In this document: piece by piece, positions 4,773 to 56,014 of the stretch | How positions within the stretch are numbered: position 1 is the first letter of the stretch | Layout of the letters: every line of letters starts with the position of its first letter | From: Thermodesulfobium acidiphilum | GTDB taxonomy: Bacteria > Thermodesulfobiota > Thermodesulfobiia > Thermodesulfobiales > Thermodesulfobiaceae | NCBI RefSeq assembly: GCF_003057965.1 | Contig: NZ_CP020921.1 | Span: 1,189,001 to 1,253,000 of the forward strand | Direction: 5' to 3' | DNA length: 64,000 nucleotides | Translations under genes and position numbers: made by a program | Notes under the pieces: model-generated | Seen by the model: only the letters and a program-made list of their open reading frames with translations | Database searches by the model: none | What the model was told of the DNA's origin: nothing

Positions 4773-4774
4773 CT

Positions 4775-5278
4775 TTAGCTCCTCAAATTTAAATCTTCAA
4801 TAGGCGGCAATTCGTCTAAAGAACTTAAACCAAAAAAATCAAAAAACTTATTGCTTACCCCAAAAAGGGGTTGCTTAATGGGAGCATTATTAAAAGAGAG
4901 AATCTTAATAAAGCCATTTTCGAAAAGTTTCATCACTTGCTTTTCGCTTCTTAAACCCCTTATTTTAGATACATTACTTGCACTTATTGGTTGGTTATAT
5001 GCTATTATAGCTAAAACCTCCAACATGGATTTTGATAACTTTTCATTGTCTCTTTTACATAAAACAAAATCTTTAAATTCTGGTCTAATACCAAAAAAAT
5101 ATCCTTTTGAATTTTTGTATATCTTAAAACTTCTGTCTTTATATTCATTATTCAACTGATCTATTAAATCTTCAACCTTTTCTGGTTTTATCCCCACAGC
5201 CTTTGAAATATTGTCTAATTTAATAGGTTTTACGTTTAGAAAAATAATTGCTTCAATAATTTTTTTAAAGTCTTTCAC
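4775..5278 (-). CDS. scpB: Segregation and condensation protein B
   Basis: ScpB is a winged-helix protein that dimerises and binds the kleisin ScpA in the bacterial SMC condensin. The 167-residue product begins FKKIIEAIIFLNVKPI and contains the conserved SMLEVLAIIAYNQPIS and IRGLRSEKQVMKLFENGFI stretches; length is typical or slightly short. The start is GTG at 5278, and the first 14 bases overlap the end of scpA in another frame, indicating coupled translation. No smc gene is seen here. Confidence 0.92.
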   Translation of the reverse strand: MKDFKKIIEAIIFLNVKPIKLDNISKAVGIKPEKVEDLIDQLNNEYKDRSFKIYKNSKGYFFGIRPEFKDFVLCKRDNEKLSKSMLEVLAIIAYNQPISASNVSKIRGLRSEKQVMKLFENGFIKILSFNNAPIKQPLFGVSNKFFDFFGLSSLDELPPIEDLNLRS

Positions 5279-5825
5279 TTTTGAAAATAATAAAATTTCT
5301 TTTCTGTTTTAACTCTATTATATTATTTTTGTAAAGTTCAAGGAATGCTAAAAAATATCCCACTCTTTCTTCAAATTTTATCAAAAATAAATCAAATTGG
5401 CTAAACCCATTGTTTATCAAAAATTTAATAGAATCCACAAAAAAGCTTAAAGGGATATATTTTCTTACATTATAGACTTTCGATTTATTTATAAACTTTA
5501 TCATAGCTCTTTTCAAAATTTCAGGTTTATAGGAAATCTCATTTGGATTGTATTTTCTTGGTACCGGGCAAGATGCCCTCATTGACAAAAGCCAGTCCGA
5601 AACCCAATCCCAACAACTATTTTTAGTAGCATTAGCTTTTAATAAATCTAAATTTGTTCTATCTTTTTCAAAAAATACATTATCTAATCCCTCAAAGATA
5701 TTCCTAATCTCATTAATAATTTGGTAGGGATTCTCAAAATTTTTTTCCTCTACGATCTGTCTTATTCTCTCTACCTGACACAGCAATTCATCTAAATATG
5801 AAACATTAACGCTATCTATTAACAT
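5265..5825 (-). CDS. scpA: ScpA-like kleisin, unusually short
   Basis: 186 residues immediately upstream of and overlapping scpB by 14 bases. The C-terminal segment (about 145-183, FEERVGYFLAFLELYKNNIIELKQ) matches the winged helix by which ScpA closes the SMC ring. The usual N-terminal FxGPLDLLL segment that binds the SMC neck is not recognisable, and the protein is 50-70 residues shorter than typical ScpA. The ATG at 5823-5825 is one base from the trpS stop, leaving no room for a longer start without entering trpS. Either a divergent functional ScpA or an N-terminally reduced one. Confidence 0.75.
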   Translation of the reverse strand: MLIDSVNVSYLDELLCQVERIRQIVEEKNFENPYQIINEIRNIFEGLDNVFFEKDRTNLDLLKANATKNSCWDWVSDWLLSMRASCPVPRKYNPNEISYKPEILKRAMIKFINKSKVYNVRKYIPLSFFVDSIKFLINNGFSQFDLFLIKFEERVGYFLAFLELYKNNIIELKQKRNFIIFKSERL

Positions 5826-5826
5826 T

Positions 5827-6816
5827 TTATATTGGATAATTTAGTTTCATAGCATCGTAGACTTCTCTAATTGTGTTTTTGCAATAATTAGATGCACTGT
5901 CAGATCCTGATTTCAGTATATCCCAAAGCATATCTTTGTGCGATAAATAATAACTTCTTTTGTTCCTTATTGGTTCTAATATCTCATTTATTTTTTTTGC
6001 AAGCTGTTTCTTACAATCTACACAACCAATCTGAGCTTTTTCACACCTTTCTCTTACTTCAGAAAGCTCTGATTTGAATAAAACCCCATAATAAGAAAAA
6101 ACATTACAAACGTCAGGATGTCCTGGATCAGTTTTTTTGATTCTTTCTGGGTCTGTAATCATTGAAGCTACCTTTTCATTTATACTTTTCTCGTCATCCT
6201 TCAGATATATAGCATTATTATAAGATTTACTCATCTTTCTACCATCAACACCCAATAATTTTGGAAATTCAGCTAATAAAGCTTCCGGTTCAGGAAATAT
6301 TTCTTTATAATGAAAATTAAATCTTCTTGCAATTTCTCTTGTCATCTCAAGATGTGGAACTTGATCTATACCCACAGGTACCCTTTTTGATTTGTAAATT
6401 AATATATCAGCTGCCATTAAAACTGGATATCCAAGATGACCATATGTAAGCTGATCTTCAATACCAAGCTCCCTTGCCTGTTCTTTTACTGTTGGATTTC
6501 TCTCAAGCCACGATACAGGAGTCAACATTGAAAGTATCATATGTAGATGAATGTGCTCAGGAACTAAAGATTGTAAGATTACAGTAGACTTTTTTGGATC
6601 AATTCCACAAGATAACCATTCTGCAAGCATTTCTTCAATATAGCCACTTAAATCAGCTGAATCTTGCCACTTTGTAGTCAAAGCATGCCAGTCCACAATA
6701 CCAAAAAAACATTTATAATTTTCCTGCAAAATTTTCCAGTTTTCCAAAACTCCTAAATAGTGACCTATGTGTAGACTTCCTGTAGGTCTCATACCACTAA
6801 AGATTGTTTCTCTCAA
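5827..6816 (-). CDS. trpS: Tryptophan--tRNA ligase
   Basis: Class I aminoacyl-tRNA synthetase that charges tRNA-Trp. The 329-residue product has the HIGH signature as HIGHY at 16-20 and an exact KMSKS at 194-198, with the family's GIVDWHALT near 39 and DQVPHLEMTREIARRFN from 151. Length is normal. It follows the HD-domain gene by 13 bases and is almost contiguous with scpA. No T-box or tryptophan leader is visible; the gene has no upstream space of its own. Confidence 0.97.
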   Translation of the reverse strand: MRETIFSGMRPTGSLHIGHYLGVLENWKILQENYKCFFGIVDWHALTTKWQDSADLSGYIEEMLAEWLSCGIDPKKSTVILQSLVPEHIHLHMILSMLTPVSWLERNPTVKEQARELGIEDQLTYGHLGYPVLMAADILIYKSKRVPVGIDQVPHLEMTREIARRFNFHYKEIFPEPEALLAEFPKLLGVDGRKMSKSYNNAIYLKDDEKSINEKVASMITDPERIKKTDPGHPDVCNVFSYYGVLFKSELSEVRERCEKAQIGCVDCKKQLAKKINEILEPIRNKRSYYLSHKDMLWDILKSGSDSASNYCKNTIREVYDAMKLNYPI

Positions 6817-7889: not shown

Positions 7890-10496
7890 TCAACTCTTTT
7901 CAGATATAAATTTATTTATAAATTTTAGTTCATCCTCATACGTACTAATATTGCCAAAAAATTTTTCTTTCTTTAAATTTTTAAGTATCTCACCAATAAA
8001 AACTGGCTTAACATCGCTTCTATTCGAGAGTTCTTCTCCTGTAGTCAGAGGTTTGAAAACGTTTTTATTCTTTTCAAACCACAAAACATAATCATTTAAG
8101 GGTTTTTCCTCTAAAATCTTTAAAAAACAAATAATTTCAGATGGAATTCCCTCTAAAGTTTCAAAAAGATCAAAGTCTTTAAAGATGTTTTGGCTCCTTT
8201 TTCTCGAAAACTTAAACAAAAATTTCTTTAATTTCTCAACATATAAGATTTCTTTTTTTGTAAATTTCCACTTTCTTTTAAAAAATCTGTCCTCAGATTT
8301 AAGTATATTATATATTATTGGTAAGATACATAAAAACCACCATTCTTTCAAATTATTTCCAAAACCTTCAGATTTAAGGCAAGAAAAATATCCTTTGAGT
8401 TTATCCAGGCTAAAATTAAAAGATATCTTAGGATGAATTAGTTTAAAGACATTTAATTCTTTCATGCGCATTATAATTAATGCTGGACAAGATCCGTGTG
8501 AAAACATCAATTTCAATTCTTCCTTTAAAACATCAAAAGATATTACGTTAAAAAGTTTTAGTTCCATAGCATTCTTAATAAGCTCCTCATCTGCCTTATC
8601 AATCTTAAATCCAAGTTGAAATTCAAATCTAATAGCTCTTATAATCCTTGTAGGATCTTCTACATAACTCAAGGGGTGCAAAACTCTGATTCTTTTAATT
8701 TTTATATCCTCATACCCGCCAAAAAAATCGATCATTTTGCCATAAGAATCTTTATTCAAAGAAATTGCAAGAGTATTGATAGAAAAATCCCTTCTATACA
8801 TATCATTATGTAAATCTGAATACTCTATCAGTGGTTTTGCAGCAGGGCAACTATAAAATTCAGTTCTTGCAGAAGCAAAATCAAATTTTATTTCTTCATT
8901 CTTTATAGTTGCTGTTCTAAACTTTTCATAAGAAAAAAATTCACCATTAATATATTTATTAACCTCCTGGGCAAGCTTTATCGCATCTCCTTCTACTACT
9001 ATATCCATATCATTAGATTGTATGTTCAAAAGTAGATCTCTTACACACCCACCCACTAGAAATGATTTTAAGGAAAGTTTATCAGAAACGTTAGAAATAA
9101 TTTCTAAATAATCTTTGATCCTTTGATCCAATCTTACATTTAAATCCAAAATAACTCTTTTTGTTGAAAGTTCTTTAGTTTTTTTTACGTTTATACCATG
9201 CCAAACTCTTAAAATATCTGTTCTCGTTATTAGACCTACCAGTCTATTTTCCTCATTAATCACAGGAAGCCTGCCTATTTCCTTTTCAATCATTAGCTTT
9301 TGTGCTTCGTCGAGAGAGGCATTTTGATTTATCGTTATTACGTTCCTCGACATTATCTTTTGTACTTCCATTTGCCCTAATTTGTGTTGAGTAGCTTTAT
9401 CAATGTCCTTTCTTGAAAGAACACCAACTATTTCGTCATCTTTTAAAATTGGAACACCAGAATGGCCATACCTTAGTAAAATTTTTCTAGCCTCTTCTAC
9501 AGACGTTTCAGGAGCAAGTACCCTAACAGGAGAGGTCATAACATCCTTAACTCTTATCTTAGGCTTACATTCTTTCTGGATAGCGCTTCGAAGCTTATCT
9601 AGAAAATCAGAAAATTCTTCTTTCAATCTAAAAGTGGCAGCAGCAGCTTCATTATGTCCTCCGCCACCAAAATTTTCCAAGACTTTTCTGACGTTCAAAT
9701 AATCGCCCAATCCTCTTGCAATTATGTGTACTGTGTCTTTTACTTTAAGAACTGCAAATACGTTCTCACACTCTATTAAGTCCCTAAGTTTATGAACCAC
9801 CAAAGCTGCATCTTCCACCTCTGTATCTAATTCAGCATATGTTAAAACATACTCGACTCCATTATAAAAGTCCTTCGAACTATTATCCAAAAAGAACTCA
9901 AGTAATTGCCTCTGATAAGGATTCATCCCAGATTCCAAAAATCTAGATACTACCATTAAGTTTGCACCATTTTGTATTAAATCTGCAACTGCATTTGCAT
10001 CCCTATAAGTGGTAGAGGTATACAATAACCTTCCTGTATCCTCATAAACACCCAAAAGCATTAATGTAGCTTCTATTTCAGAGTATTTTATGCCTCTTCT
10101 TTTAATTTCTTCCCAAACCAAAGTTACTGACGAACCTACGCTGGTGTCTGGATACCTTACAATTTTAAAATTAGGTGGAAAATACCCAAGAGTGTGATGA
10201 TCAAAAATATATACTTCTAATTCCTTATTCTTTGGCAAAGATCCATAAAAGGATCCGATTCTCTGAGGGTTAGATGTGTCTGCAAAAACCAAAAAGTCTA
10301 TTTCCTCAAAAGCAATATCTTCATACTTAACAAAGGGAAATATGTATTCATATAGGTGTAAAAATGCTTCTACCTGAAATTCAACTCTTTCAGGCATTAC
10401 AACTTTTGCATTAAAGATTTTTTGTAACATAAAAGCTGAAGCAATTCCATCAAAATCAGAATTGTTATGAGTAAAAATAAGCCCTTTTTTCATCAT
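7890..10496 (-). CDS. DHH-CBS-nucleotidyltransferase fusion (CCA- or A-adding tRNA enzyme)
   Basis: 868 residues in three parts. The N-terminal DHH phosphoesterase has NNSDFDG at 11-17, DHH at 99-101 and a DHHA1 GGGGH at 277-281. Two CBS domains follow at about 316-368 and 377-430, likely sensing adenine nucleotides. The C-terminal class II polymerase-beta-type domain has GGCVRDLLL at 482-490, DMD at 496-498 and YRRDFSINTLAI. Such fusions act on tRNA 3' ends; in some lineages CCA addition is split between a CC-adding and an A-adding enzyme, and sequence alone does not say which this is. It overlaps pdp by four bases. Confidence 0.88.
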   Translation of the reverse strand: MMKKGLIFTHNNSDFDGIASAFMLQKIFNAKVVMPERVEFQVEAFLHLYEYIFPFVKYEDIAFEEIDFLVFADTSNPQRIGSFYGSLPKNKELEVYIFDHHTLGYFPPNFKIVRYPDTSVGSSVTLVWEEIKRRGIKYSEIEATLMLLGVYEDTGRLLYTSTTYRDANAVADLIQNGANLMVVSRFLESGMNPYQRQLLEFFLDNSSKDFYNGVEYVLTYAELDTEVEDAALVVHKLRDLIECENVFAVLKVKDTVHIIARGLGDYLNVRKVLENFGGGGHNEAAAATFRLKEEFSDFLDKLRSAIQKECKPKIRVKDVMTSPVRVLAPETSVEEARKILLRYGHSGVPILKDDEIVGVLSRKDIDKATQHKLGQMEVQKIMSRNVITINQNASLDEAQKLMIEKEIGRLPVINEENRLVGLITRTDILRVWHGINVKKTKELSTKRVILDLNVRLDQRIKDYLEIISNVSDKLSLKSFLVGGCVRDLLLNIQSNDMDIVVEGDAIKLAQEVNKYINGEFFSYEKFRTATIKNEEIKFDFASARTEFYSCPAAKPLIEYSDLHNDMYRRDFSINTLAISLNKDSYGKMIDFFGGYEDIKIKRIRVLHPLSYVEDPTRIIRAIRFEFQLGFKIDKADEELIKNAMELKLFNVISFDVLKEELKLMFSHGSCPALIIMRMKELNVFKLIHPKISFNFSLDKLKGYFSCLKSEGFGNNLKEWWFLCILPIIYNILKSEDRFFKRKWKFTKKEILYVEKLKKFLFKFSRKRSQNIFKDFDLFETLEGIPSEIICFLKILEEKPLNDYVLWFEKNKNVFKPLTTGEELSNRSDVKPVFIGEILKNLKKEKFFGNISTYEDELKFINKFISEKS

Positions 10497-43429: not shown

Positions 43430-44518
43430 ATGAGTTTTCTTAAGGTTAATGGCCTCCAAGTAAAAATAGGAAATTTTATTTTAGACAATATTTCCTTTGA
43501 ACTAAATGAGGGTCAAATTATTACAATTTTAGGACCAAGCGGTTCAGGTAAAACTATTTTATTAGAATCCATTGCAGGTTTTCACACTCTTAACAAGGGA
43601 AAAATTTATCTTGAAAATAAAGATATAAGTATTTTACCTGTAGAAAAAAGGGAGATAGGTTTTATGTTTCAAGATTATGCGCTTTTCCCTCATTGGACTG
43701 TTAGAGAAAATATCTTATCTTCATTTAAATTTAACAAAGGATATAAAAAAATTAACATCAACCCAGAAAAAATAATAAAAATGCTTCATATTGAAGATCT
43801 CCTAGATAGATATCCGATCAACTTAAGTGGCGGAGAAAGACAAAGGGTGGCTCTAGCAAGGTCTTTAGTTGCAAATCCAAAAATGTTCTTGTTCGATGAA
43901 CCCATGTCAGCACTTGATGCAAGAACCAGAGAAAATTTAAGAGATGAACTCTTGAGTATCTTAAAAAATCTCTCTTTAAGCGCAATCTATGTAACCCATG
44001 ACCATATCGAAGCTTTTACCTTAGGGGATTTAGTGGGAATAATTAATAAAGGAAAATTGGTTCAAATTGGAGAAAGAAATAAAATATTTAGAAACCCAAA
44101 CTCTATCTTTGTAGCAGATTTTATAGGTATAGAAAATCTTTTTTCTGCAAAAATTCAATTAGTAAAAAAAGTATCTCCAGAATTGTATTTTATTATTGCA
44201 AAACATAAACAAATTGAATTTAAAATATTTTCAAAGGAACAGTTTTCTACCAATGATGAAGTTTTTCTTTCAATAAGATCTGAAGATATTAGCTTCTTAG
44301 ATGAATCAGAAGAAAAAAATGATAATTTTAAAAACATAATAATATTAGAAGTTATTGACATAGTTCAAATTGATTTCTTTTACAAAATTTTTCTAGGTGG
44401 TGATGTTCTTCTCAAAGTAATAACTTTAAAAGATTCTATTAAAAAGCATAAAATAAACACAGGCAAAAAAATTAAAGTACATATAGATCCGGAATACATT
44501 CATATTATAAAAGCATAA
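43430..44518 (+). CDS. wtpC: Tungstate/molybdate ABC transporter, ATP-binding protein
   Basis: 362 residues: nucleotide-binding domain with Walker A GPSGSGKT at 35-42, signature LSGGE at 132-136 and Walker B MFLFDEP at 152-158, then a C-terminal extension of about 130 residues in the TOBE position, which in relatives binds oxyanion or contacts the permease. It ends six bases from the convergent mgtC-like gene, with no terminator between. Confidence 0.9.
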   Translation: MSFLKVNGLQVKIGNFILDNISFELNEGQIITILGPSGSGKTILLESIAGFHTLNKGKIYLENKDISILPVEKREIGFMFQDYALFPHWTVRENILSSFKFNKGYKKININPEKIIKMLHIEDLLDRYPINLSGGERQRVALARSLVANPKMFLFDEPMSALDARTRENLRDELLSILKNLSLSAIYVTHDHIEAFTLGDLVGIINKGKLVQIGERNKIFRNPNSIFVADFIGIENLFSAKIQLVKKVSPELYFIIAKHKQIEFKIFSKEQFSTNDEVFLSIRSEDISFLDESEEKNDNFKNIIILEVIDIVQIDFFYKIFLGGDVLLKVITLKDSIKKHKINTGKKIKVHIDPEYIHIIKA

Positions 44519-44523
44519 AAATT

Positions 44524-45225
44524 TCAATGATCCTTAGCCCCCTGACTCCAATTTACATATTTGACATAATTGATATGTTTTAGCCTTTCTAGAAGGTCTT
44601 TTAAATCTTCTTCATTTATATCTCCTGATAAAATATTAAATATTATTTTACTTTCACCTTCTTTTACTGACTCTATCCTCATATTCCTCACAGGATATCC
44701 CAATTGTTTCAGAAGTTTTCTTATAACGTTAAATACTCTATCCTCTTTTTCCTCTTCTACTCCAACACAAACTGAGATAATAAAATCGTTTGCCGTTACC
44801 ATAGGCAAATTATTAATTGTATTTACAATAGTCCTTAAGAGAGTATTGGTAACCAAAACAAAAATAGTAGCCATAGCAGCTGGCATCCATTGCTGAGCCC
44901 CAGAACAGGCGCCAACTGCAGCAGAACACCAAAGTGTAGCAGCAGTATTTATACCTCTTATATTTATACCCTCTTTCATAATTGCTCCCGCACCCAGAAA
45001 CCCAACCCCTGAAACTACATAAGCAACTACCCTTATATCATTTATAGTTCCTCCCATGCGAAGTCCAAGGTCAACAAATATAGCAGCCCCAAGTGCAACA
45101 AGAGTATTAGTTCTTAGACCAGCCGGGTGCTGCCGCCACTGACGCTCAATTCCTATAAGTGTACCAAGTACAAATGCAAGAAACAAACCAAAAAAGGTTT
45201 GGCCTAAGCCCATTGTTTGATCCAT
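44524..45225 (-). CDS. MgtC/SapB family membrane protein
   Basis: 233 residues from ATG 45225, which has GAGG eight bases upstream; a TTG four codons earlier is unlikely. The N-terminal membrane part has [20 protein letters not shown] and [11 protein letters not shown], the conserved MgtC pattern, and the C-terminal ACT-like cytoplasmic domain covers the last 90 residues. Relatives aid growth at low magnesium and modulate ATP synthase. Convergent with the tungstate transporter. Confidence 0.9.
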
Positions 45226-45392
45226 ATTTAACCTCAATTCTGATTTACTTTTTCAAGATTTTAAACACTTTTGTTTAGAATCCTCTTAAAATAAATTATA
45301 AGAAATTTTAACATTTTTAAAATTGTTATTTAAGAAATATCTTATATTATTAGATCAGAATTCTTAAATAAAAAAATTTAATTATTAAACTA

Positions 45393-45421
45393 ATTACAAT
45401 AACCTATTAAAATGCTATAAT
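45393..45421 (+). promoter_or_regulatory. Extended -10 promoter before the zinc-ribbon gene
   Basis: ATTACA (45393-45398), a 17-base spacer and TGCTATAAT with -10 TATAAT at 45416-45421. It lies 45 bases before the small zinc-ribbon ATG and likely serves the downstream genes too. Confidence 0.55.
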
Positions 45422-45466
45422 ATTAAAAACAATTACAAAAATTATTAATATTAAGGAGGATTTAAA

Positions 45467-45589
45467 ATGGCAGTTTTCAAATGTAAAAAATGTGGTTATA
45501 TTAAAGAAGGACGGTGTAAACCAAAAAAGTGTCCAGAATGTAACGAACAGAATTCTTTTGAAAGAGTTGACTCAGAAAAGAAAGGGTAG
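45467..45589 (+). CDS. 40-residue rubredoxin-like zinc-ribbon protein (RCKP type)
   Basis: A gene too short for routine calling: ATG 45467, strong SD AAGGAGGA at 45453-45460, stop TAG 45587-45589. MAVFKCKKCGYIKEG followed by RCKPKKCPECNE gives two CxxC knuckles (C6, C9; C22, C25) plus the RCKP motif seen in tiny rubredoxin/rubrerythrin-like proteins of anaerobes. It should bind one Fe or Zn. Just downstream is a Fur/PerR-family regulator, which fits a link to metals or oxidative stress, by context only. Confidence 0.85.
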   Translation: MAVFKCKKCGYIKEGRCKPKKCPECNEQNSFERVDSEKKG

Positions 45590-45647
45590 TTTTAAATTTA
45601 TGTTACAATATTTTCTGTTAAAATTTAATTAATAAGGGTGAATTAAA

Positions 45648-46028
45648 ATGAGAATGACACCTCAAAGAAAGTTGATAATAGACATATTAAAAAGTACAAA
45701 ATCACATCCTGATGCACTTTGGATTTATCAGAACGCCATAAAGAAGATGCCAAGGATGGGACTAGGCACTGTTTACAGGACTTTGGAGCAACTTGAAAGA
45801 GAGGGCGAAATAAAAAGAATCGATTTTAAAGGGATAGCCCATTACGACGCAAATGTAAACGTTCATCCACATCTTTTATGTTCAAAATGTGGAAAGATAG
45901 TTGATATTAGTGATAGCTATGATTTTGACTTAAGAAATTTCGATTTAAAAGGTTTCAAAATTGAATCTATAAATCTTGATATTATAGGCATTTGTCCTGA
46001 ATGCCAATCAAAAAAGGGTGAAAATTAG
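45648..46028 (+). CDS. Fur/PerR family transcriptional regulator
   Basis: 126 residues with the Fur winged helix (about 1-60; GLGTVYRTLEQLEREG at 38-53) and dimerisation domain. C78, C81, C116 and C119 form the structural zinc site, and HPHLLC supplies regulatory-site ligands. The sequence suggests PerR or Fur but does not settle which metal or signal. It is the first of a tight run with the tautomerase and panB. Confidence 0.9.
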   Translation: MRMTPQRKLIIDILKSTKSHPDALWIYQNAIKKMPRMGLGTVYRTLEQLEREGEIKRIDFKGIAHYDANVNVHPHLLCSKCGKIVDISDSYDFDLRNFDLKGFKIESINLDIIGICPECQSKKGEN

Positions 46029-46029
46029 A

Positions 46030-46215
46030 ATGCCAATCATTACAATAGAACTATTGGAAGGCAGATCAGAGGTCCAAAAGAAGCAAATTGCTAAGGAAAT
46101 AACTGAAACCTTAGTAAAAAACGCAAATGTAAAACCTGAAGCTGTTACAATTTTGTTTCACGACTTGAAACCTGAAAATATTGCAAAGGGTGGCAAGTTT
46201 TTATCTGAAAAATAA
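46030..46215 (+). CDS. 4-oxalocrotonate tautomerase family protein
   Basis: 61 residues from ATG 46030, so that Pro follows the initiator Met as the catalytic base (MPIITIELLEGRS); an in-frame ATG four codons earlier would bury it. The family tautomerises enols; the substrate here is unknown. It is one base from the Fur-family stop and overlaps panB by one base (TAATG). Confidence 0.85.
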   Translation: MPIITIELLEGRSEVQKKQIAKEITETLVKNANVKPEAVTILFHDLKPENIAKGGKFLSEK

Positions 46216-47027
46216 TGGAAAAAAAACTTTTTGCACCTGATATAGTTAAATTAAAGGGCGTTAGAAAATTTTCAATGGTCACAACTTATGATTATACTAG
46301 CGCTCTTTTAGTATCAATGACTGATATAGATATAATACTTGTGGGAGATTCTCTAGCCATGGTAATGCTAGGTCACGAAAATACCCTTAGCATAACGATT
46401 GACGAAATGCTAATTTTTCTTAAAGCTGTAAAAAAAGGTGCCCCAAATAAGATGATCGTAGCTGATATGCCATTTCTTTCATATCAAATCGATATAAAGG
46501 ATGCCATAGAAAATGCCGGAAAACTTATCAAAGCTGGTGCAGATGCAGTAAAAATAGAAGGATTCGAATTTCCGATACCTGAGATTACCAGAAGATTAAG
46601 CAGCATTGGAATACCGGTGATGAGTCATCTAGGCCTAACTCCACAGCATGTTTTAAAGTTTGGAGGGTTTAAAGTTCAGGGCAACACAAAAGAAGATGCC
46701 GATAAAATTATTAGTGCCAGCAAGGAGCTTGAAGAACAAGGAGCATTTTGTGTTCTTTTGGAAGCTGTTCCTGAAGAAATCTCAGAAATAGTTACTAAAG
46801 AACTAAAGATTCCAACTATTGGCATAGGTGCAGGAAGATTTGTAGATGGCCAAGTATTAGTTTGGCAAGATCTTTTAGGCATAAATCCAAACAAAGTTCC
46901 TAAATTCGTTAGAAAGTATGCAAACATAAAGGATACTATAATTGATTCTTTAAATAGATATCATCTTGATATATTGAATTCAACTTTCCCTTCCTATGAA
47001 GAAGCTCATCACTTAAAGAGAGTTTAA
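46215..47027 (+). CDS. panB: 3-methyl-2-oxobutanoate hydroxymethyltransferase
   Basis: First committed enzyme of pantothenate synthesis, adding a hydroxymethyl group to 2-oxoisovalerate. The 270 residues include TTYDYTSA, the metal-binding VGDSLAMVMLGH at 43-54, SHLGLTPQ and CVLLEAVPEE. Length is normal. Its 3' end overlaps the convergent coaE by 15 bases. No panC or panD nearby. Confidence 0.95.
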   Translation: MEKKLFAPDIVKLKGVRKFSMVTTYDYTSALLVSMTDIDIILVGDSLAMVMLGHENTLSITIDEMLIFLKAVKKGAPNKMIVADMPFLSYQIDIKDAIENAGKLIKAGADAVKIEGFEFPIPEITRRLSSIGIPVMSHLGLTPQHVLKFGGFKVQGNTKEDADKIISASKELEEQGAFCVLLEAVPEEISEIVTKELKIPTIGIGAGRFVDGQVLVWQDLLGINPNKVPKFVRKYANIKDTIIDSLNRYHLDILNSTFPSYEEAHHLKRV

Positions 47028-47606
47028 AAGATCTAAAACTCTTTTTTTTACATCCTCCAAATCTTGACTACCATCAATATAATAAATAGGGACTTTACAT
47101 TTATCTATTGGTTTAGAAGGAGGCCATTGCATACTCATTCTAATTTTTGCTTCTTCCTCGCTATATCCCCTGCTTTTAATCAATCTATTTAATCTAACAT
47201 CAAAAGGAGCATCTACTATCCATATAATATCAAAATCATCTTCCATATTAGCCTCAAAAAGTAATGGAATTTCAACAAATATAGTTTTGTCCTTTTTTAA
47301 CATATCTTTAAAATAGTTCTTTATTTTTGGCCACATAAATTCTTCAAGTTTCTTTTTCATTAATTTATCCTTAGAAATAATCAGAGCAATTTTTCTTCGG
47401 AGTTTTTGAATATCACCTTTTTGTTCTTCATTAAAATAGTCTTTAAATATATTACAGATATCCTGAAAATTTTCATTGAAAACCTTCTTTGATATTTCAT
47501 CAGCACTATATACTTCGAACCCAAATTGACTCAAAAATTTTAAGATCTCACTTTTCCCCGATCCTTGAGGACCCGTAATAGCAATCAATAATCTTTCTCT
47601 ATTCAT
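47013..47606 (-). CDS. coaE: Dephospho-CoA kinase
   Basis: Last step of coenzyme A synthesis. 197 residues with P-loop GPQGSGKS at 12-19, YSADEISKKVF and the DAPFDVRLNRLIKSRGYSEE lid stretch typical of CoaE. Convergent and overlapping with panB, another CoA-pathway gene. It lies 18 bases after the beta-barrel gene of the envelope cluster on the same strand. Confidence 0.94.
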   Translation of the reverse strand: MNRERLLIAITGPQGSGKSEILKFLSQFGFEVYSADEISKKVFNENFQDICNIFKDYFNEEQKGDIQKLRRKIALIISKDKLMKKKLEEFMWPKIKNYFKDMLKKDKTIFVEIPLLFEANMEDDFDIIWIVDAPFDVRLNRLIKSRGYSEEEAKIRMSMQWPPSKPIDKCKVPIYYIDGSQDLEDVKKRVLDLLNSL

Positions 47607-47623
47607 TATCTTTGTAATAATCC

Positions 47624-49495
47624 TTAAAAGGACATGATACTTAGTGTCGCCCCAAATGACCAGCTTCTACCATTTCCGCTATCACTTTTTTGATTTACTG
47701 CATAAAATTCTATTGGAGTAGAGGCCAGACCTACAGTAAACCTAAAGCCCTGATTCATTCTTATCCACGGATACGGTATTGGAATAGTTTTAGTAAAACC
47801 AATATAATATTTTGTATTGAAAGGAGCTCCCGATTCACTTTTCGAAAATTCAACTTCAGAAAATATAAAATCTAATCCAAATCTATTCAGTATATCCTTT
47901 TTATTCAAAATGTCCGCATATTTCATAAGATATAAGCTTCTTCTTTCCCAAAAAGCATTAACTGCCCGCCCACCTGTTCTTAAATTATCGTCAAGCCCTC
48001 TAAAACGAATTATCCAATTACTTCCTAAATAATAATCAAGATCAAGTCTCAAATTAATCCAGGAGTTCTTACCCACGGTATAATAGGAAGAGTACACATA
48101 GCCTCCAAATCTATTTGAATCTATTCCAACTATAACAGGCCTACCGATGATAGTTTCATACTCTAGATTTGTGTTCAGGTGTCTATCTGCTCTCATATAA
48201 AAATCATCGTTAGGATCAAGATGGATACTTCCTATTCGTAAATATGTGTTTTTAATGAAATTATCCCATTCTACCATCGCGCCAAATTTCTCAAATCCAC
48301 CAGTAAATGAACCGGTATTTGAAGAAAAACTACTTACACTTCCTCTTTGGGAAGTAAAGTCAAAGTTGTCTAACCTCCCATAAAGACCAAGATATTCAGG
48401 ATTATATTCGTCTTTTGACTTATAAAGATCCCATCGCCATGCAAAATGAGGCTTTGTGAACATTATACTATCAAAATATCCCCATTCATAATGAGCATTT
48501 TTAGTATCCCAATCAAAATTAGCTCCGATTAGAGTCCTTCTTTCTCTCGCCTTACTATAATCCAATCTTATATCAGATGAAACATTAGTAATTACGTTAT
48601 TCCCAATCTTTGATAAATCACCCTTATAAGACTCAATTGGCACATGCTGTTCAATATATCCTACTGTAGGATCAGCTTTACCGAGAACATATTGATCGCT
48701 TATATGTGTATTGTTGAAGTTAGCCCAAAAAGAATAATCTTGTTTATGGAGCCTATTTGTGGTGTCATATATTGACCCGCCAACCTGACCAGAATAATTA
48801 TAATTAATTACTAAACCTTTATCCGCAGTATCAGACCATGTAATGTTTAGTCTTTTGGTTATAATAGGAACAACCCCCAAGACCAATCTACCAGGAGGAT
48901 TACCAATTTGACCTGCATCTGCAATAGGTATATACATATTGCTTGGGAAAAGTATATCTCTTTGACGTGGGATACTGATATATTCAATCTTACCATCGGC
49001 CATCAAAACCGGCACTCTTACACCTTCTGCAAGGGCTTTATCAGTTACACCAACAGGTACCATAAAACTATTTCCTGGTTTTTGCATATCTTTGTAAGTA
49101 ATATCAAATGTTTCCTTTCCGAATTTTACAGTTTTAGTAACATTTGAGCTGGCATTTTTATCCTGATAGGTAAAAATTTTTCCATCTATCAAAAGAATTT
49201 GCCCACTTTTAGCACTATTTGTATCCATAACTATACTTTCATTGGCATAGGAAAAATTATTAGAGAAAAAAGCAAAAAAAGTTACAAAAAAAAGGATGCT
49301 AGTAAAAACAGCTTTTTTAAAACGTAATTTTCTTAATCTTAGTGAGGCAAATGAAGTGGTGAAAATATTGTTTTTTGCGGAAAAAGATAGACGAAGTTGA
49401 TGAAGTCTTTCCTTTAATACGACAAAATCAAAAAGAGCATCCTCAATACTATAATCACTATATATTTTTTTATAAGAATTAATGTTTATTTTCAC
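47624..49495 (-). CDS. Predicted outer-membrane beta-barrel protein of the envelope cluster
   Basis: 623 residues, no named family recognised. A hydrophobic segment at 61-82 ending SYANES looks like a signal peptide, but it is preceded by about 55 charged residues. Residues 85-195 form a mixed domain; from about 205 on, alternating aromatic/polar strands run to the end, finishing with Phe (GATLSIMSF), the mark of BAM-assembled barrels. GTG start at 49495 overlaps the PASTA-like gene as GTGA. Likely the outer-membrane part of a system driven by the ExbB/ExbD-like pair. Confidence 0.7.
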   Translation of the reverse strand: MKININSYKKIYSDYSIEDALFDFVVLKERLHQLRLSFSAKNNIFTTSFASLRLRKLRFKKAVFTSILFFVTFFAFFSNNFSYANESIVMDTNSAKSGQILLIDGKIFTYQDKNASSNVTKTVKFGKETFDITYKDMQKPGNSFMVPVGVTDKALAEGVRVPVLMADGKIEYISIPRQRDILFPSNMYIPIADAGQIGNPPGRLVLGVVPIITKRLNITWSDTADKGLVINYNYSGQVGGSIYDTTNRLHKQDYSFWANFNNTHISDQYVLGKADPTVGYIEQHVPIESYKGDLSKIGNNVITNVSSDIRLDYSKARERRTLIGANFDWDTKNAHYEWGYFDSIMFTKPHFAWRWDLYKSKDEYNPEYLGLYGRLDNFDFTSQRGSVSSFSSNTGSFTGGFEKFGAMVEWDNFIKNTYLRIGSIHLDPNDDFYMRADRHLNTNLEYETIIGRPVIVGIDSNRFGGYVYSSYYTVGKNSWINLRLDLDYYLGSNWIIRFRGLDDNLRTGGRAVNAFWERRSLYLMKYADILNKKDILNRFGLDFIFSEVEFSKSESGAPFNTKYYIGFTKTIPIPYPWIRMNQGFRFTVGLASTPIEFYAVNQKSDSGNGRSWSFGATLSIMSF

Positions 49496-50028
49496 GGTTC
49501 TTGATATATAAACCCTTCATAAAAAATGTAAATATTGTCATTAGAAGACGTTCCCTGTAAAAAAACTGCCTTCTTTTTTACTGGAATCTGTTCTAAGTTA
49601 TTTAGAATTTCAAAACCCATTTTTTCTAAGAGTGTTTTAGCATCATTAATAGAAAGTCCTTCAATATCAGGTATCAAACCCATTACTTCTGCTTCTCTAA
49701 GTTTAAGATCTAGCCCCCACTTCCCAAACTTATAGGACATATACAGATTATATCTTTCTACTTTAAGAGTTGGATAATTTTTTTTAATCCAGTCATACAC
49801 ATTATCGATCTTTTTCTCATTTTTTTTATAAGAATCTTCTAAAGAATATAACTCATTAGCAGTACCGAAAACTACTACTATTCCATTTTGAATTCTAAAA
49901 ATAACGTTATCCTCAGGATCTGCAAATACTAAACTTTGGGAAATCAAAATAGAACAAAAAAAGAACAAAATCAAAAACAAAATAAAGAAAATAATCCTTA
50001 AATTTCTAAAATTCATACACCTTCTCAT
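49492..50028 (-). CDS. Exported or anchored protein with C-terminal PASTA-like domain
   Basis: 178 residues. One strong hydrophobic segment (about 10-34) followed by a domain of unknown type, then GLIPDIEGLSINDAKTLLEK and MGFEI, a good match to a PASTA repeat (about 118-150), which in other proteins binds peptidoglycan. The first ATG overlaps the upstream stop; a second ATG at 50016 has AGAAGG just before it and is an alternative start. Coupled by four-base overlap to the barrel gene. Confidence 0.7.
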   Translation of the reverse strand: MRRCMNFRNLRIIFFILFLILFFFCSILISQSLVFADPEDNVIFRIQNGIVVVFGTANELYSLEDSYKKNEKKIDNVYDWIKKNYPTLKVERYNLYMSYKFGKWGLDLKLREAEVMGLIPDIEGLSINDAKTLLEKMGFEILNNLEQIPVKKKAVFLQGTSSNDNIYIFYEGFIYQEP

Positions 50029-50675
50029 TACATCAAATACACCTTGCTAAGTTTTTTAAAAAAGTCATTAATAAAAACTTTATAAGAGTCAAAATCTGGT
50101 GGAGGATCTTGATCTAAAAGTGTTAAAAGATAATACTTTTGTTCCTGATCCACACCTTTATTCATTTTTTCTATTTGAGAATATGCTAATTTTATCATTC
50201 TAACTCGAAGAGGCAAAAAATCCAAACCATATATGCTTCTCTCTTTAACATTATAAAGATCAGGAAAATACGTAACCTTCTCTAAAGCATTTCTAATATC
50301 GAGATAATGTAAGAGTTTTTGGTCAACCTTGTCTTCTAAGGCCTTACTAAAAATGGGATCATCAATAGGCATAGAATCCTCTTTTAACCTTTGTTCGGCA
50401 TTTACATAAGCAGAAAAAAGTTCTTTTGGAACGTCCTGAGCATGTCCAAGTATATACATAGCCCTCAAAGAATTTTCCTCGGAAAGAGATTTTAGTTTTG
50501 GAAGGTTTCCTCTTGAAAATGTATAGAAATATTTGTATGAAAGATCGTTTGCTTTTTTCTCCCAAATTTGAATTATCTCCTGGGACAAATTTACTACATT
50601 GGCACCGGCATTTGTACTTAAAATGGGAAGGTTGCTTACTGAAAGAAAAACAAATAGGAAAATAGAAAAAGACAA
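50028..50675 (-). CDS. Secreted protein of unknown family
   Basis: 215 residues from a TTG. Hydrophobic N-terminus, then a mainly helical protein with YFYTFSRGNLPKLKSLSEEN and conserved-looking charged stretches; no domain recognised. The TTG at 50675 gives a signal peptide without a basic start. Upstream codons in the same frame encode FPSFKKAFFVLSF with no intervening stop, behind AAGGGATGG, which would make a better signal peptide but has only an ATT or ATA start. The true start is unresolved. It lies between ExbD-like and PASTA-like genes. Confidence 0.6.
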   Translation of the reverse strand: MSFSIFLFVFLSVSNLPILSTNAGANVVNLSQEIIQIWEKKANDLSYKYFYTFSRGNLPKLKSLSEENSLRAMYILGHAQDVPKELFSAYVNAEQRLKEDSMPIDDPIFSKALEDKVDQKLLHYLDIRNALEKVTYFPDLYNVKERSIYGLDFLPLRVRMIKLAYSQIEKMNKGVDQEQKYYLLTLLDQDPPPDFDSYKVFINDFFKKLSKVYLM

Positions 50676-50777
50676 TACAAAAAAAGCCTTTTTGAAGGAA
50701 GGGAAAATTAAACCATCCCTTATATTCTTAATCTTAAAAAAATTTGAATTTATAATACTTTATATTCCTCCAAATAT

Positions 50778-51170
50778 TTATTTTCTTATGTCAATATATT
50801 CACTTGAACCAAATTTACCCTTTAACTCCTTTTGAAGCGCTTCGTTTTTAGCTTGAAGTTCTGAAACTTTTGCTTGGAGTTGGGCTATTTGCGATAAAAG
50901 TTTTTGCCTTTCATTTTGAGTAAATTGATTCTGATTTTCGTAAACATTTTGTTCGTTTGTTGGAATTTTACTTCTTAACATATTGTTTTCTTTAACAAGG
51001 GCCGCAATCATTTCCTGACTTTGTTGAAGCTGTTCTTGAAGATTACTCGTAGAAACTTCCTGCGGTTTAAAGTAAGCAATAGACAACAAAGCAACAAAAA
51101 CAATTACTAACATAAAAGCAAAGTCAATAAACGGCATAAGAAAAGTAATACGTCTCTTTGGAGAAGCCAT
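50778..51170 (-). CDS. ExbD/TolR/MotB-like membrane protein with periplasmic coiled coil
   Basis: 130 residues. A short basic start, then one membrane segment (about 12-34) with an Asp in MPFIDFAFMLVIVFVAL, the position of the proton-carrying Asp of ExbD, TolR and MotB. Instead of a folded periplasmic domain, residues 42-120 are a Gln/Glu/Leu-rich coiled coil. It is one base from the ExbB-like gene. Probably the rotor or plug partner of that protein in a proton-driven complex. Confidence 0.68.
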   Translation of the reverse strand: MASPKRRITFLMPFIDFAFMLVIVFVALLSIAYFKPQEVSTSNLQEQLQQSQEMIAALVKENNMLRSKIPTNEQNVYENQNQFTQNERQKLLSQIAQLQAKVSELQAKNEALQKELKGKFGSSEYIDIRK

Positions 51171-51171
51171 T

Positions 51172-51573
51172 TTACGAGAGTCTGGCCGAAATAGCTGACA
51201 ATATTACTGATATCAAAAGTCCAGTAATTGTCGCCTCAATCTTGATAGAAACGCCATAACCTACCATTTCAACGTTGTGAGCAGCAATAGCAGGGCCGAT
51301 AACCTGGCCTAAACCATATAGGGTTACAACAAGACCTAAACCCTGAGCTACACCGCCCATTGTAATTAGCTTTTCCTGTGGGGTTTCCTTAGAAATAAGA
51401 CCAGCCCATGCCGCTCCAACAGGTACTATTGCAGCCCAGACGGTACTTCTTGCAACGAAATAAACCAAAGGAGCTGCTATCAAAAGTAGAAACATTATCA
51501 TTACAAGATCTATTCTCTTTTGAACAAATTCTTGCAAAACAGATTTTTTTGTGCTCAAGTCTGTTTTATTCAT
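51172..51573 (-). CDS. Minimal ExbB/TolQ/MotA-like membrane protein
   Basis: 133 residues with three or four membrane segments. GGVAQGLGLVVTLYGLGQVI and GVSIKIEATITGLLISVIL fit the last two helices of ExbB/TolQ/MotA (the GLLGTVxG and TTxxGLxxAIPA regions). The large cytoplasmic loop of these proteins is missing, so it is about half their size. First gene of the likely operon exbB-like, exbD-like, secreted, PASTA-like, barrel. Confidence 0.65.
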   Translation of the reverse strand: MNKTDLSTKKSVLQEFVQKRIDLVMIMFLLLIAAPLVYFVARSTVWAAIVPVGAAWAGLISKETPQEKLITMGGVAQGLGLVVTLYGLGQVIGPAIAAHNVEMVGYGVSIKIEATITGLLISVILSAISARLS

Positions 51574-51610
51574 ACTTTAAATTTCACCTTTCACAAAATT
51601 AATTTATAGT

Positions 51611-51638
51611 ATTATAAGATTTTAGCAGTAAAAACCAA
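51611..51638 (-). promoter_or_regulatory. Possible promoter of the envelope cluster
   Basis: Minus strand TTGGTT (51633-51638), 16-base spacer, TATAAT (51611-51616), 38 bases upstream of the ExbB-like ATG. Plausible, but AT-rich sequence makes chance matches likely. Confidence 0.4.
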
Positions 51639-51653
51639 AAAGTCATACTATTT

Positions 51654-52271
51654 CTAAGAATTTTTATTTTTTAAATATTCTTTGAAAATTGTAAAAAATA
51701 AAAATAAAACCCCTATTAACCACAATAAGGGTATTCCATATTCAATTATTGGAGGATTAGGCATATTAAGAGATACGTTATTAGGTGTATTTATTTGATT
51801 TTGCTGATTTTTATTAAGAGTAATATTTATTGTATTATTACCCTTCCCTACACTCGCACCAAGATTAAGTGCCGTTATCTCTAGTGGAACCATCGTTCTA
51901 TCCTGATAAATAAAAGCAGGAGCTAACATCCTTTCTTCTTTATTGTTTACATTTACCTGGGAGCTTTCAATGTAAAACTCTATACTTTTGTCACCCAATG
52001 AAACTTTAACTATTCTATGTTGTTCATCCCATGTTACGGTTGCTTTTAAAGCTTCTGATACAAATCTTACTGGCACATAAATTAGACCATATCTTATTAC
52101 TGGCGGTACATCACTTTTAATTTCTTTTCCATCAACAATAATTTTCAAATCGTTAGCAATTTTAATATTTGCATCTAAAATCTTTGACGCGCTAACTGGC
52201 GTTTGTTCTTGGGCATACGCAGTAGAAATTAAAAAGCACATTACAAAAAAAATGAAAATAAACCTTTTCAT
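51654..52271 (-). CDS. Exported protein with copper-amine-oxidase N-terminal domain
   Basis: 205 residues. Signal peptide ending AYAQ, then two repeats of the CAO-N (Cu_amine_oxidN1) fold: IIVDGKEIKSDVPPVIRYGL, YVPVRFVSEALKATVTWDEQ and MVPLEITALNLGASV. The C-terminus has a membrane segment (about 176-196) and a basic tail, so the domain is displayed outside a membrane. Such domains are common in envelope proteins of anaerobes and are not enzymes. It lies 80 bases upstream of the ExbB-like gene and may belong to the same system. Confidence 0.78.
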   Translation of the reverse strand: MKRFIFIFFVMCFLISTAYAQEQTPVSASKILDANIKIANDLKIIVDGKEIKSDVPPVIRYGLIYVPVRFVSEALKATVTWDEQHRIVKVSLGDKSIEFYIESSQVNVNNKEERMLAPAFIYQDRTMVPLEITALNLGASVGKGNNTINITLNKNQQNQINTPNNVSLNMPNPPIIEYGIPLLWLIGVLFLFFTIFKEYLKNKNS

Positions 52272-52364
52272 ATCCTTAAAATCCTATAAATCCATACATA
52301 TGTTTTTTACTCCCTATATAAAAATATTCTTATATTATACACTTCTTTAAAAAATATATCAAAA

Positions 52365-53912
52365 TTACTCCCACTCTATTGTCGCGGGTGGTTTAGAGGA
52401 TATATCATATACCACTCTATTAACTTCATCTACCTCATTTACAATTCTTCTAGCGATCCTATCAAGCAAATCATAAGGTATTCTCGCCCAATCTGCTGTC
52501 ATTGCATCATCGCTAGAAACTATTCTTACTACTACTGGATAAGAATAAGTACGCCTATCTCCCATAACTCCTACACTTTTTATTGGCAAAAGCACGGCAA
52601 AAGCTTGCCATACATCTCTATATAATCCAGCATTAAAAATCTCTTCACGGACAATCGCATCAGCATCTCTCAAAATTCTTAATTTTTCTCTTGTTATTTC
52701 ACCCACAATTCTTATGGCAAGACCTGGCCCAGGAAAGGGATGCCTATAAACAATTTCTTCAGGAAGGCCAAGCTCTAAAGCAAGATTTCTTACCTCATCT
52801 TTAAATAAATTTCTAAACGGCTCAAGAAGTTTAAACTTCATATCCTTGGGGAGACCAGCAACATTATGGTGCGATTTTATCCTCACTGCTTTACCGCCAA
52901 CGCTAACAGCACTCTCTATTACATCGGGATATAGAGTGCCCTGCACCAACCAATCGAAATCTCCAATTCCTTTTATTGCATCTTCGAATGTCCTTATAAA
53001 TTCTTCACCAATAATCTTTCTTTTATGTTCTGGATCTGATACTCCTTCTAGTTTTGACAGAAATCTTTCTCTTGCATCAATAAACTTTACATTCAAATGG
53101 AACTCTTCATCAAATATCCTTTTAATATCTCTATTTTCATTTTTTCTCATAAGACCCGTATCAACATAAAAGCAAGTAAGATTATCACCTATAGCTTTGT
53201 GAACCAAAACAGCAGCAGCACTGGAATCAACTCCACCAGAAAGTGCACATATTACTTTTTGATTGCCAACCATTTCTCTAATTTTAGATATAGAATCTTG
53301 TATAAAGGTAGCCATAGACCATGTAGGTTTTGCTTTACAAATATTAAAAACAAAATTTCTTATTATTAACTGGCCCTGTTCTGTATGAGCCACTTCAGGA
53401 TGAAACTGCACTGCATAAATATTTTTTTCAGGAGAACAAACGCTTGCAAGCTTTTTATTTTCAGTTATAGCAAGACAACAAAAACCTTCTGGTAAAATCT
53501 TTACTTCGTCTCCATGACTCATCCAAACGTTAATTTCATTGGTAATATTTTTGAAAAGTAGATTTTCACCTTCAAATTTTATTTTTGTTCTGCCATACTC
53601 GTGCTTTTTACCCTGTTCTACGTGACCACCAAGTTGTTGAGAAATCAGTTGCATGCCATAACAAATGCCTAAAATTGGAATTCCCATATTTAATATTTCA
53701 GAATCCATTTTAGGAGCGTCCTCGTCATAAACAGAATTAGGACCACCCGAAAGGATAATCCCCTTTGGATTAAGCCTAGTAAGTTCCCTCGCAGTTATAG
53801 TAGGAGGAAAAAGCTCAGAATATACAGAACATTCCCTTACTCTTCTTGCAATAAGTTGACTATATTGTGAGCCAAAATCTATTACTGCAATAAGATCCCT
53901 CTCAGAAGCCAT
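52365..53912 (-). CDS. guaA: GMP synthase (glutamine-hydrolysing)
   Basis: Amination of XMP to GMP. 515 residues: class I glutaminase with C84 in GICYGMQL and [12 protein letters not shown], then the ATP-pyrophosphatase P-loop SGGVDSS, then a dimerisation domain ending PPATIEWE. All catalytic motifs are intact. It overlaps the GuaB3-type gene by one base, so the two are co-transcribed. Confidence 0.97.
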
Positions 53913-55078
53913 TACTTACCCATCCCAAGCTTTTGGGCTTTCTGATAGACTTTCCCCTCAGTAAGAAGAGATGGTGCAACAATAACTTCTATGTTGTGTA
54001 ATTCTCTAATAGTCTTAACTCCAAGAGTTGCCAGGGACAAAACCATAGCCCCAGCTATATTATGACATCCATAATCGAACCTAGCAGGACCTACTAATAT
54101 CTCCTTAAGAGTTCCAACTGTTCCTACTCTTATCCTCGTTCCTCTTGGCAAAACCGAATTAGGTGTAGCCATACCCCAATGAAAACCCATTCCAGGGGCT
54201 TCTTGAGCTCTTGCTATAGGCGAACCTATCATAACCGCATCTGCACCCACGGCTAATGCTTTAATCATATCTCCTGAGTTTACCATACCGCCATCAGCAA
54301 TTATGGGTATATATTTTCCAGTTTCATTGAAAAACATATCTCTTGCAGCTGCTGCTTCACTTATAGCAGTAGCTTGAGGCACACCAATACCTAAAACTCC
54401 TCTTGTCGTACATGCTGCACCTGGTCCAACTCCTATCAAAACTGCGCTTGCTCCCTGTCTCATAAGACCAATAGTAGAAGAAAATCCAACCGTGTTTCCT
54501 ACAATTACTGGAATTTCCATCATAGAACAAAATTCTTTTATATTCAAAATATTTCCTTTACTGCTTATATGCTTTGGTGCAATAACAGTTGCCTGAAGAA
54601 CAAATATATCTGCTCCAGCATCCCTTGCAATAGGGCCAAATTCAGCAGCCATTTGAGGTACACTCGATACTGCGGCAATTGCTCCATGTGACTTTACTTC
54701 TTGTATTCTCTTTACTATAAGATCAGGTTTAATCGGTTCTTCATAAAGTCTTTGCATTACAGTTACAAAATCATCTGTTGAAGCTGCGGCAATTTCTTCA
54801 AGTACAGGAAGGGGGTCATCATATCTCGTTTGAATGCCCTGCAAATTGATTACTCCCAAAGCACCATATTTTGAAAGCTCTACTGCAATAAAAGGATTCA
54901 CTACAGAATCCATTGCTGATGCAATAACAGGAATGCTAAATTCATAACAACCAATTTTAACGGATATATCTACATCTTCCGGATCAATAGTTCTTTCCGT
55001 TGGTCTTAATGCAATTTCGTCAAGACCATAACCCCTTCTTGTAATTTTAAACTTTGAAATCTCTTCCACTAATAACAT
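53912..55078 (-). CDS. GuaB3-type IMP dehydrogenase-related protein
   Basis: 388 residues of the IMPDH/GMP reductase barrel without CBS domains. ASAMDSVV, the nucleotide-loop [12 protein letters not shown] with catalytic C223, and [12 protein letters not shown] are present. The sequence ([20 protein letters not shown]) is of the GuaB3 branch known from actinobacteria and cyanobacteria. SD GGAGGT touches the first ATG (55078); GTG at 55069 has better spacing. Whether it makes XMP or reduces GMP is open; the shared operon with guaA favours XMP supply. Confidence 0.85.
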
Positions 55079-55101
55079 ACCTCCTCAAACGGATTAATTT
55101 T

Positions 55102-55944
55102 CTAATATCTTACATAATTTGTATTATCTGAGCAAACATTTCCCTGAAGAAGCATTTTTAAGGTTACTGTATTTAACGGTATAAAATCGAACCTATCTCC
55201 CAAAAAGGCAGCTACTTTAAACAAAGATAAAGGAACTGGTACAAAGATAATTTTTTTTTCAACAATTTTTGCTATATATTCTATAAGTTCTCGAAAACTC
55301 ATTTCTTCCTCACCACATATTTTTATAACATTTGACTCTAAGCTACCATTCACAAGTTCTTCAGCAGCTTTTATAATTCTTTCAGCAACAACTTCTACCC
55401 TTATTGGAGAAAACTTTGCATCAATTTTAGGAAGAGGGAAAAAACCTAAACTTAATGGCATTGACAAATCCTTTACTATCCCTTCCTTTTCACCAATTAC
55501 AATTGATGGTCTAATTATTGCATACTTTAAACCACTAGATTTTATCTTTTCTTCGGCCTGATACTTATACTTAAAGTAATCAGTGAGCTCTTTACCCTTC
55601 TCTACTCCATTGGCACTCATTTGCACTAATGGAATATTTTTATCAAATTCAACTATAGAATCTATTAAATTGGATGCTGCATCAAAATGCATTGCCTTAA
55701 AGGTTATCCCTCTTTCTGGCACCTCTTTAATTATGCCAACAAGATTAATTACAACGTCTGGTTTTAATTTTAAAGCATCTTTTATTGAACTTTTATCAAG
55801 AATGTCACCTTTTATATATTCGACATTTTCCCCTTCAATTTTTCTTTTATGAGAAAAAACTATAACTTTATTATCTTTATCAAGTAAAGTTTTTACTACT
55901 TGTTTACCAATAAATCCTGTTCCTCCAAAAATTAAAACTTTCAT
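55102..55944 (-). CDS. NAD(P)-binding atypical short-chain dehydrogenase
   Basis: 280 residues from ATG 55944 (GAGG five bases before; an in-frame GTG two codons earlier is less likely). KVLIFGGTGFIGKQVV is the Rossmann motif, and GVIKEVPERGITF, SANGVEKGKELTDYFKYKYQ and AIIRPSIVIG match the complex-I 39-kDa-like branch (atypical SDR). The YxxxK is YKYQAEEK-like. Substrate unknown. It follows the heptose genes on the same strand by 70 bases and may act on sugar nucleotides or in quinone or electron-transfer assembly. Confidence 0.8.
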   Translation of the reverse strand: MKVLIFGGTGFIGKQVVKTLLDKDNKVIVFSHKRKIEGENVEYIKGDILDKSSIKDALKLKPDVVINLVGIIKEVPERGITFKAMHFDAASNLIDSIVEFDKNIPLVQMSANGVEKGKELTDYFKYKYQAEEKIKSSGLKYAIIRPSIVIGEKEGIVKDLSMPLSLGFFPLPKIDAKFSPIRVEVVAERIIKAAEELVNGSLESNVIKICGEEEMSFRELIEYIAKIVEKKIIFVPVPLSLFKVAAFLGDRFDFIPLNTVTLKMLLQGNVCSDNTNYVRY

Positions 55945-56014
55945 TTTCACCTCAAATAAAATTTATTAATATATCTTAAAAAATTTAAAGAACAATTGCA
56001 AACGTAATAATTTT

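Follow-up and report, generated by a model that had tools for sequence, protein, structure and literature searches.

A set of six genes, named A to F and read in that order from the minus strand, may encode a proton-driven machine of the cell envelope in Thermodesulfobium acidiphilum. In the reading that we favor, with a probability of roughly 0.6, A, B, and C make up an inner-membrane motor of the MotA/ExbB and MotB/ExbD type, and D, E, and F are its periplasmic and outer-membrane partners. The genes lie in a 64,000-nucleotide stretch (hereafter, the window; contig NZ_CP020921.1, positions 1,189,001 to 1,253,000) of a complete 1.77 Mb genome, for which three more genomes of the same genus, one of them a metagenome-assembled genome according to the public record, served as the comparison set. 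By sequence, B and C are related to known motor families, A and B are fused in another phylum, and the linkage of the genes is conserved. The outer membrane has neither ATP nor an ion gradient, and its supply of energy has so far been explained mainly by motors of the Ton, Tol, gliding, and type IX kinds. If our reading is true, the six-gene set is another answer to the problem of powering the outer membrane, its motor core is among the smallest known to us, and it suggests what powers the outer membrane of those lineages in which Tol-Pal has not been found.

The channel-like component would be B, which has four predicted transmembrane helices with short connecting loops, a positively charged N terminus, and no cytoplasmic domain, a topology that agrees with the positive-inside rule. 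By its sequence, it appears to be the membrane core of MotA minus the cytoplasmic domain, that is, a divergent MotA/TolQ/ExbB-like protein, and MotA_ExbB (PF01618) was the only family matched by all seven B homologues. Five residues (T84, T115, T117, K111, and E113) are invariant over these seven sequences from two phyla; T84 aligns with the Thr of GTV in the GLFGTVxG motif of ExbB and T115 with the Thr of SSTALGL, including in the ExbB of this genome. A ring of essential threonines around paired aspartates is a feature shared by MotA, ExbB, and TolQ (PMC12204202). The partner protein, C, is bitopic, with one transmembrane helix carrying a PFID motif (D16), followed by a periplasmic coiled coil and, at the C terminus, a conserved tip of the form (Y/F)(I/L)D(I/L)R. 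D16 is invariant across the two phyla and stands in register with the Asp of P-x-x-D in ExbD, and PFID matches the motif in the ExbD of PDB 6tyi.

Profiles of B and C were compared by hhalign with ExbB and ExbD families built from other genomes, together with 200 composition-keeping shuffles. The score of B against the ExbB family started at 27.7 with four sequences and reached 30.2 (probability 53 %) once distant homologues were added, above the best shuffle at 24.6; for C against ExbD, the score rose from 27.6 (four sequences) to 32.3 (probability 70 %; best shuffle, 21.2), over an alignment of about 20 residues around the Asp. An initial annotation of this DNA had taken B and C for an ExbB/MotA-like and ExbD-like pair, and weak but consistent Pfam matches, profile scores above all shuffles, and invariant Thr and Asp residues uphold that assignment. 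The sequence marks that it listed (GLVVTLYG and TITGLL in B, the membrane Asp D16 in C, and the Phe at the end of F) are present and conserved in the genus, and its description of B as half-size is only relative, since the canonical ExbB encoded elsewhere in this genome has just 164 amino acids. Sequence searches of the PDB with B, with F, and with the N-terminal part of C found no relative, the sole match of C being rhodopsin at E=0.81. Further matches of B with E values from 3e-4 to 0.04 were set aside as chance, as five of them (L092-L094, L097, and L098) resemble transporters of the major facilitator superfamily by sequence and two (L095 and L096) are antisense to a ribosomal L1-like gene. 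The Zorya defense system was also rejected as a match: C resembles ZorB (3.1e-5) over the transmembrane helix and coiled coil, and B matches nothing in PADLOC.

The place of A in the motor is suggested by its fusion to B. In this protein, a signal peptide is followed by a Cu_amine_oxidN1 stalk domain (residues 46-150), a C-terminal transmembrane helix (about residues 178-196), and a K-rich tail. A profile search of 386 genomes returned strong B homologues (E values from 1e-25 to 3e-28) in three genomes outside the genus, and all three reading frames open with a signal sequence and a Cu_amine_oxidN1 domain and end with B, giving A and B as a single protein. These three genomes share one phylum, in which the fused gene was present in six of the seven genomes examined, G386 being the exception. 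A homologue of C adjoins it in all six (truncated in G387, where the contig stops), keeping the transmembrane motif and, where complete, the (Y/F)(I/L)D(I/L)R end. The fusion also tells which periplasmic domain would sit on the motor. A second survey of 385 genomes, mostly the same sample, yielded no additional phylum, and relatives of A-B were absent from the viral contigs searched, plasmids giving the stalk domain alone. In G387, the fused frame is shifted near its end.

The other half of the set accompanies the fusion. A profile of F matched exactly the six genomes with fused A-B (hidden Markov model search up to 1.6e-13; blastp up to 1.3e-24), and neither G386 nor five other genomes. Homologues of D and E lie directly upstream of F in five of them (G122, G259, G385, G388, and G389), in the order D-E-F and, where measured, with four-base overlaps or six-base gaps; in G387, the order is X-D-E-F, and the contig ends inside F. 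Identity to the window across the phyla is 22-26 % for F, 21-26 % for E, and 17-20 % for D. The gene preceding D, here called X, encodes a protein that scored above the Pfam cut-offs for LptC or LptD_N in two of three scanned copies (LptC in G122, LptC and LptD_N in G387, and no match in G259). A D profile built from the genus alone found nothing credible beyond the genus among 386 genomes; because the D orthologues emerged only by reading next to F, this absence means little.

Across two phyla, then, the six genes stay linked, in two different layouts. Thermodesulfobium has all of them in a single run, and the order guaB-guaA-A-B-C-D-E-F-coaE is kept in both of the other genomes of the genus in which the stretch is intact, the remaining genome having A to E in order and F split over two contigs (protein identity to the window, 71-96 % across the genus). 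Since the whole neighborhood is conserved within the genus, this synteny alone is weak evidence, and the linkage is also seen in the distant relatives. The initial annotation had looked to conserved neighborhood in relatives as support: one run is indeed found in the genus, but in the other phylum there are two clusters, not one.

In the machine that we propose, we infer the ring stoichiometry, proton flow, force transfer, and cargo as follows. Two C helices would be surrounded by a number of B subunits (by analogy, five), each paired with A, with which it makes up one chain in the relatives, with the stalk domain of A on the motor rim at the periplasmic side. Protons would pass along T84 and T115 of B and Asp16 of C, and their passage would turn or bend one part of the motor against the other (the C stalk against the A domain). 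The coiled-coil stalk of C and its (Y/F)(I/L)D(I/L)R tip would then pass force to D and E, from which it would reach F in the outer membrane. Most likely, the job is the upkeep of the outer membrane by moving or assembling lipid, glycan, or protein, because D-E-F follow the LptC/LptD_N-like X in the other phylum; a Tol-like, gliding, or secretion role is also conceivable. The fullest form of the proposal, a further proton-driven trans-envelope machine apart from Ton and Tol, with new proteins D, E, and F, a task in lipid, glycan, or protein handling, and a range covering the genus and a second phylum, is held tentatively, at a little short of even odds.

Several results weigh against a motor with D, E, and F as its partners. 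Both B and C fall short of the curated score of their families: PF01618 gives B 14.6 bits against a cut-off of 22.9 (best relative, 19.4 bits, E=9.1e-4), and PF02472 gives C 18.2 bits against 25.4. The latter match spans residues 11-90 only, largely the transmembrane helix and coiled coil, without the periplasmic domain of ExbD/TolR, and the coiled coil may inflate it; coiled-coil families outscore ExbD on C, the top Pfam match being DivIC (8.2e-6, under its cut-off), and two C homologues of the other phylum lack an ExbD match in Pfam. The AlphaFold2 (AF2) model of B, built from four sequences, has a predicted local distance difference test (pLDDT) score of 50.5 and no usable fold, and that of F is of low confidence (overall pLDDT, 46). 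In the other phylum, (A-B)-C and D-E-F stand at separate loci, and the six genomes are related by descent, which makes the joint presence of the modules in them count as few independent events. We also know of no experiment on this system.

The separate loci would also fit a reading in which A-B-C is a true proton channel that senses the wall or envelope through the stalk domain and coiled coil, or energizes some other partner, and D-E-F is a separate module for outer-membrane assembly or transport that only shares the operon in Thermodesulfobium. It would suit the company of an LptC/LptD_N-like protein that D-E-F keep in the other phylum, and a physical link of C to D, E, or F cannot be shown. 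Even so, this seems rather unlikely, as in two phyla the genomes that carry one module carry the other as well, G386 lacks the two together, and they form a single run in the three Thermodesulfobium species that can be read whole. Their joint absence from G386 counts as one more independent event, in a genome that is only 78 % complete.

Another reading is that the proteins form a static bridge from inner to outer membrane, with C as a DivIC/FtsL-like bitopic coiled-coil protein, B as an unrelated four-helix membrane scaffold, and no motor at all; in its favor are the DivIC match of C, the lack of any motor profile at curated score, and an AF2 model of B without a ring-competent arrangement. 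We consider it improbable, given that MotA_ExbB alone is matched by all of the B homologues, that both alignments are in functional register with pore Thr and Asp invariant, and that an ExbB-like gene followed by an ExbD-like gene is the canonical order.

The secreted and outer-membrane components are of unnamed families. F is probably a beta barrel of the outer membrane, preceded by a long signal-peptide region and a periplasmic domain at the N terminus, as judged from its sequence and model: its amphipathic strand excess was reached by only 2 of 500 shuffles, and the AF2 model has long strands in the C-terminal half at a pLDDT of 60-78. A Foldseek search of the model against the PDB placed Hsp40 at the top with low TM-scores, which was taken as an artefact, and barrel matches were weak. 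Residues 1-55 of F form a long, poorly conserved stretch before the signal sequence, and the true start may be downstream. E is a secreted protein whose sequence includes G-L-I-P-x-I-E-G-L-S, a PASTA-like half motif; the PASTA-like stretch reported by the initial annotation amounts to a weak resemblance, at 14.6 bits against the PF03793 cut-off of 23.2 over 23 residues, and a whole PASTA domain was not recovered. D is likewise secreted, and in the window its signal sequence is not preceded by an ATG or GTG start; the true start probably lies upstream of the TTG at 50675. Another copy of the locus, L016, has no ATG, GTG, or TTG start ahead of the D signal sequence. Since the window (50675-50770) and L016 both carry GGAGGAATATAAAGTATTATAAAT upstream of D, a start at ATT or ATA is possible.

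The cluster is neither the Ton nor the Tol system of this genome, because a normal Ton set lies elsewhere and no Pal was found. A canonical ExbB-ExbD-TonB set is located near 1.37 Mb, with the sole TonB_C match of the genome at 1369476 and a TonB-dependent receptor bearing both receptor and plug domains nearby. Two proteins of the genome match PF01618 above the cut-off, namely the canonical ExbB and a MotA-like protein, and the sole OmpA-domain protein is MotB-like and encoded among flagellar-type genes. An OmpA-family search found no Pal in the genome; TolA, TolB, and Pal were absent from the cluster, as was TonB, just as initially claimed, with TolB not searched genome-wide. A degenerate Ton-like uptake system, with F as an unusual receptor and C or D in place of TonB, could account for a motor next to an outer-membrane barrel and for a C tip able to dock like TonB, yet it is very unlikely, given that none of the TonB receptor or plug families in Pfam matches F and that the genome keeps a normal Ton system with a true receptor.

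Compared with known systems, the proposed A-B-C unit is a motor of the ExbB/MotA sort whose core is stripped down and whose appendage and partners are new. It resembles ExbB-ExbD-TonB in its channel gene followed by an Asp-bearing bitopic gene, its pore Thr, its PFID/Asp, and its outer-membrane partner; in contrast to Ton, no TonB or plug was found, B has four transmembrane helices without a cytoplasmic domain, the periplasmic part of C does not have the ExbD fold, and the motor is fused to, or lies beside, a stalk domain. As in TolQ-TolR-TolA-TolB-Pal, motor genes are grouped with genes for secreted and envelope proteins, and the products may link the wall to the outer membrane, but TolA, TolB, and Pal are missing from the cluster; Tol-Pal has been reported from Gracilicutes only (PMC12204202). 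The MotA-MotB stator shares a four-helix channel subunit and an Asp-bearing partner, whereas here there is no cytoplasmic torque domain, C lacks an OmpA-like wall domain, and the genome has its own MotA/MotB pair elsewhere.

GldL-GldM is a 5:2 motor whose inner subunit has a long periplasmic shaft reaching to outer-membrane proteins (PMC9389320). It is likewise a motor with little sequence similarity to other motors; B and C, however, have no Pfam match to either protein, and in place of the GldM domains C carries a short coiled coil. Two recent surveys treat as open ground both the non-flagellar motors whose N-terminal appendages have no known function and new force transducers (PMC12505986, PMC12204202). 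The set is akin to appendage-bearing ExbB-like proteins (DUF3450 and DUF2341) and vWA transducer systems in having extra periplasmic domains or non-TonB transducers, and it differs in that the appendage is the Cu_amine_oxidN1 stalk domain and that D, E, and F belong to unnamed families. No paper combining ExbB and ExbD with the name of the stalk domain turned up in a literature search.

The features of the locus are listed in the table below. The flanking genes, which we take to be guaA (52365-53912) and coaE (47013-47606), enclose the six genes, whose spacing from A onward is 80 (A-B), 1 (B-C), about 21-102 (C-D), -1 (D-E), and -4 (E-F) bases, with 17 bases between F and coaE. The initial annotation correctly placed five of the reading frames on the minus strand, but in limiting the set to five it overlooked A, which is directly preceded by the best promoter-like site of the region. 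A search for RNA families found none at gathering level in 44000-56000.

Features of the six-gene locus (window coordinates)
Feature	Position	Strand	Details
Gene A	51654..52271	-	205 amino acids; PF07833 E=1.2e-29; transmembrane helix by hydropathy; in-frame fusion to B in another phylum
Gene B	51172..51573	-	133 amino acids; PF01618 E=0.029; profile comparison above shuffles; invariant columns; topology
Gene C	50778..51170	-	130 amino acids; PF02472 E=0.0028; profile comparison above shuffles; two-phylum alignment
Gene D	50028..50756	-	215-242 amino acids, depending on start; orthologues between X and E in other phylum
Gene E	49492..50028	-	178 amino acids; PF03793 E=0.034, under cut-off; orthologues and paralogue E' in other phylum
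Gene F	47624..49495	-	623 amino acids; orthologues in other phylum; amphipathic strand excess; long strands in AF2 model
Promoter-like site TTGATA-17-TATAAT	52334..52362	-	11/12 matches; consensus only; just upstream of A

Some further observations concern the surroundings of D-E-F in the other phylum. In G259, the D homologue (L127, about 9779-9782) has an in-frame stop past which the homology continues, which may reflect a sequencing error, a pseudogene, or readthrough. F is followed by E', which resembles E and has an ILEI domain (L126, 6069-7094; L127, 6219-7283). Downstream of E' in L126, the reading frames at 3890-4858 and 4892-5995 encode an ELM1-like protein (E=3.2e-56) and one whose GMGGAFTAVGGDP...NPSA motif recalls PorV/FadL-like barrels. 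Just before X lies a gene for a protein with an SLH domain, apparently a porin of the OmpM type (L126, 11558-13231), with counterparts in L128-L131.

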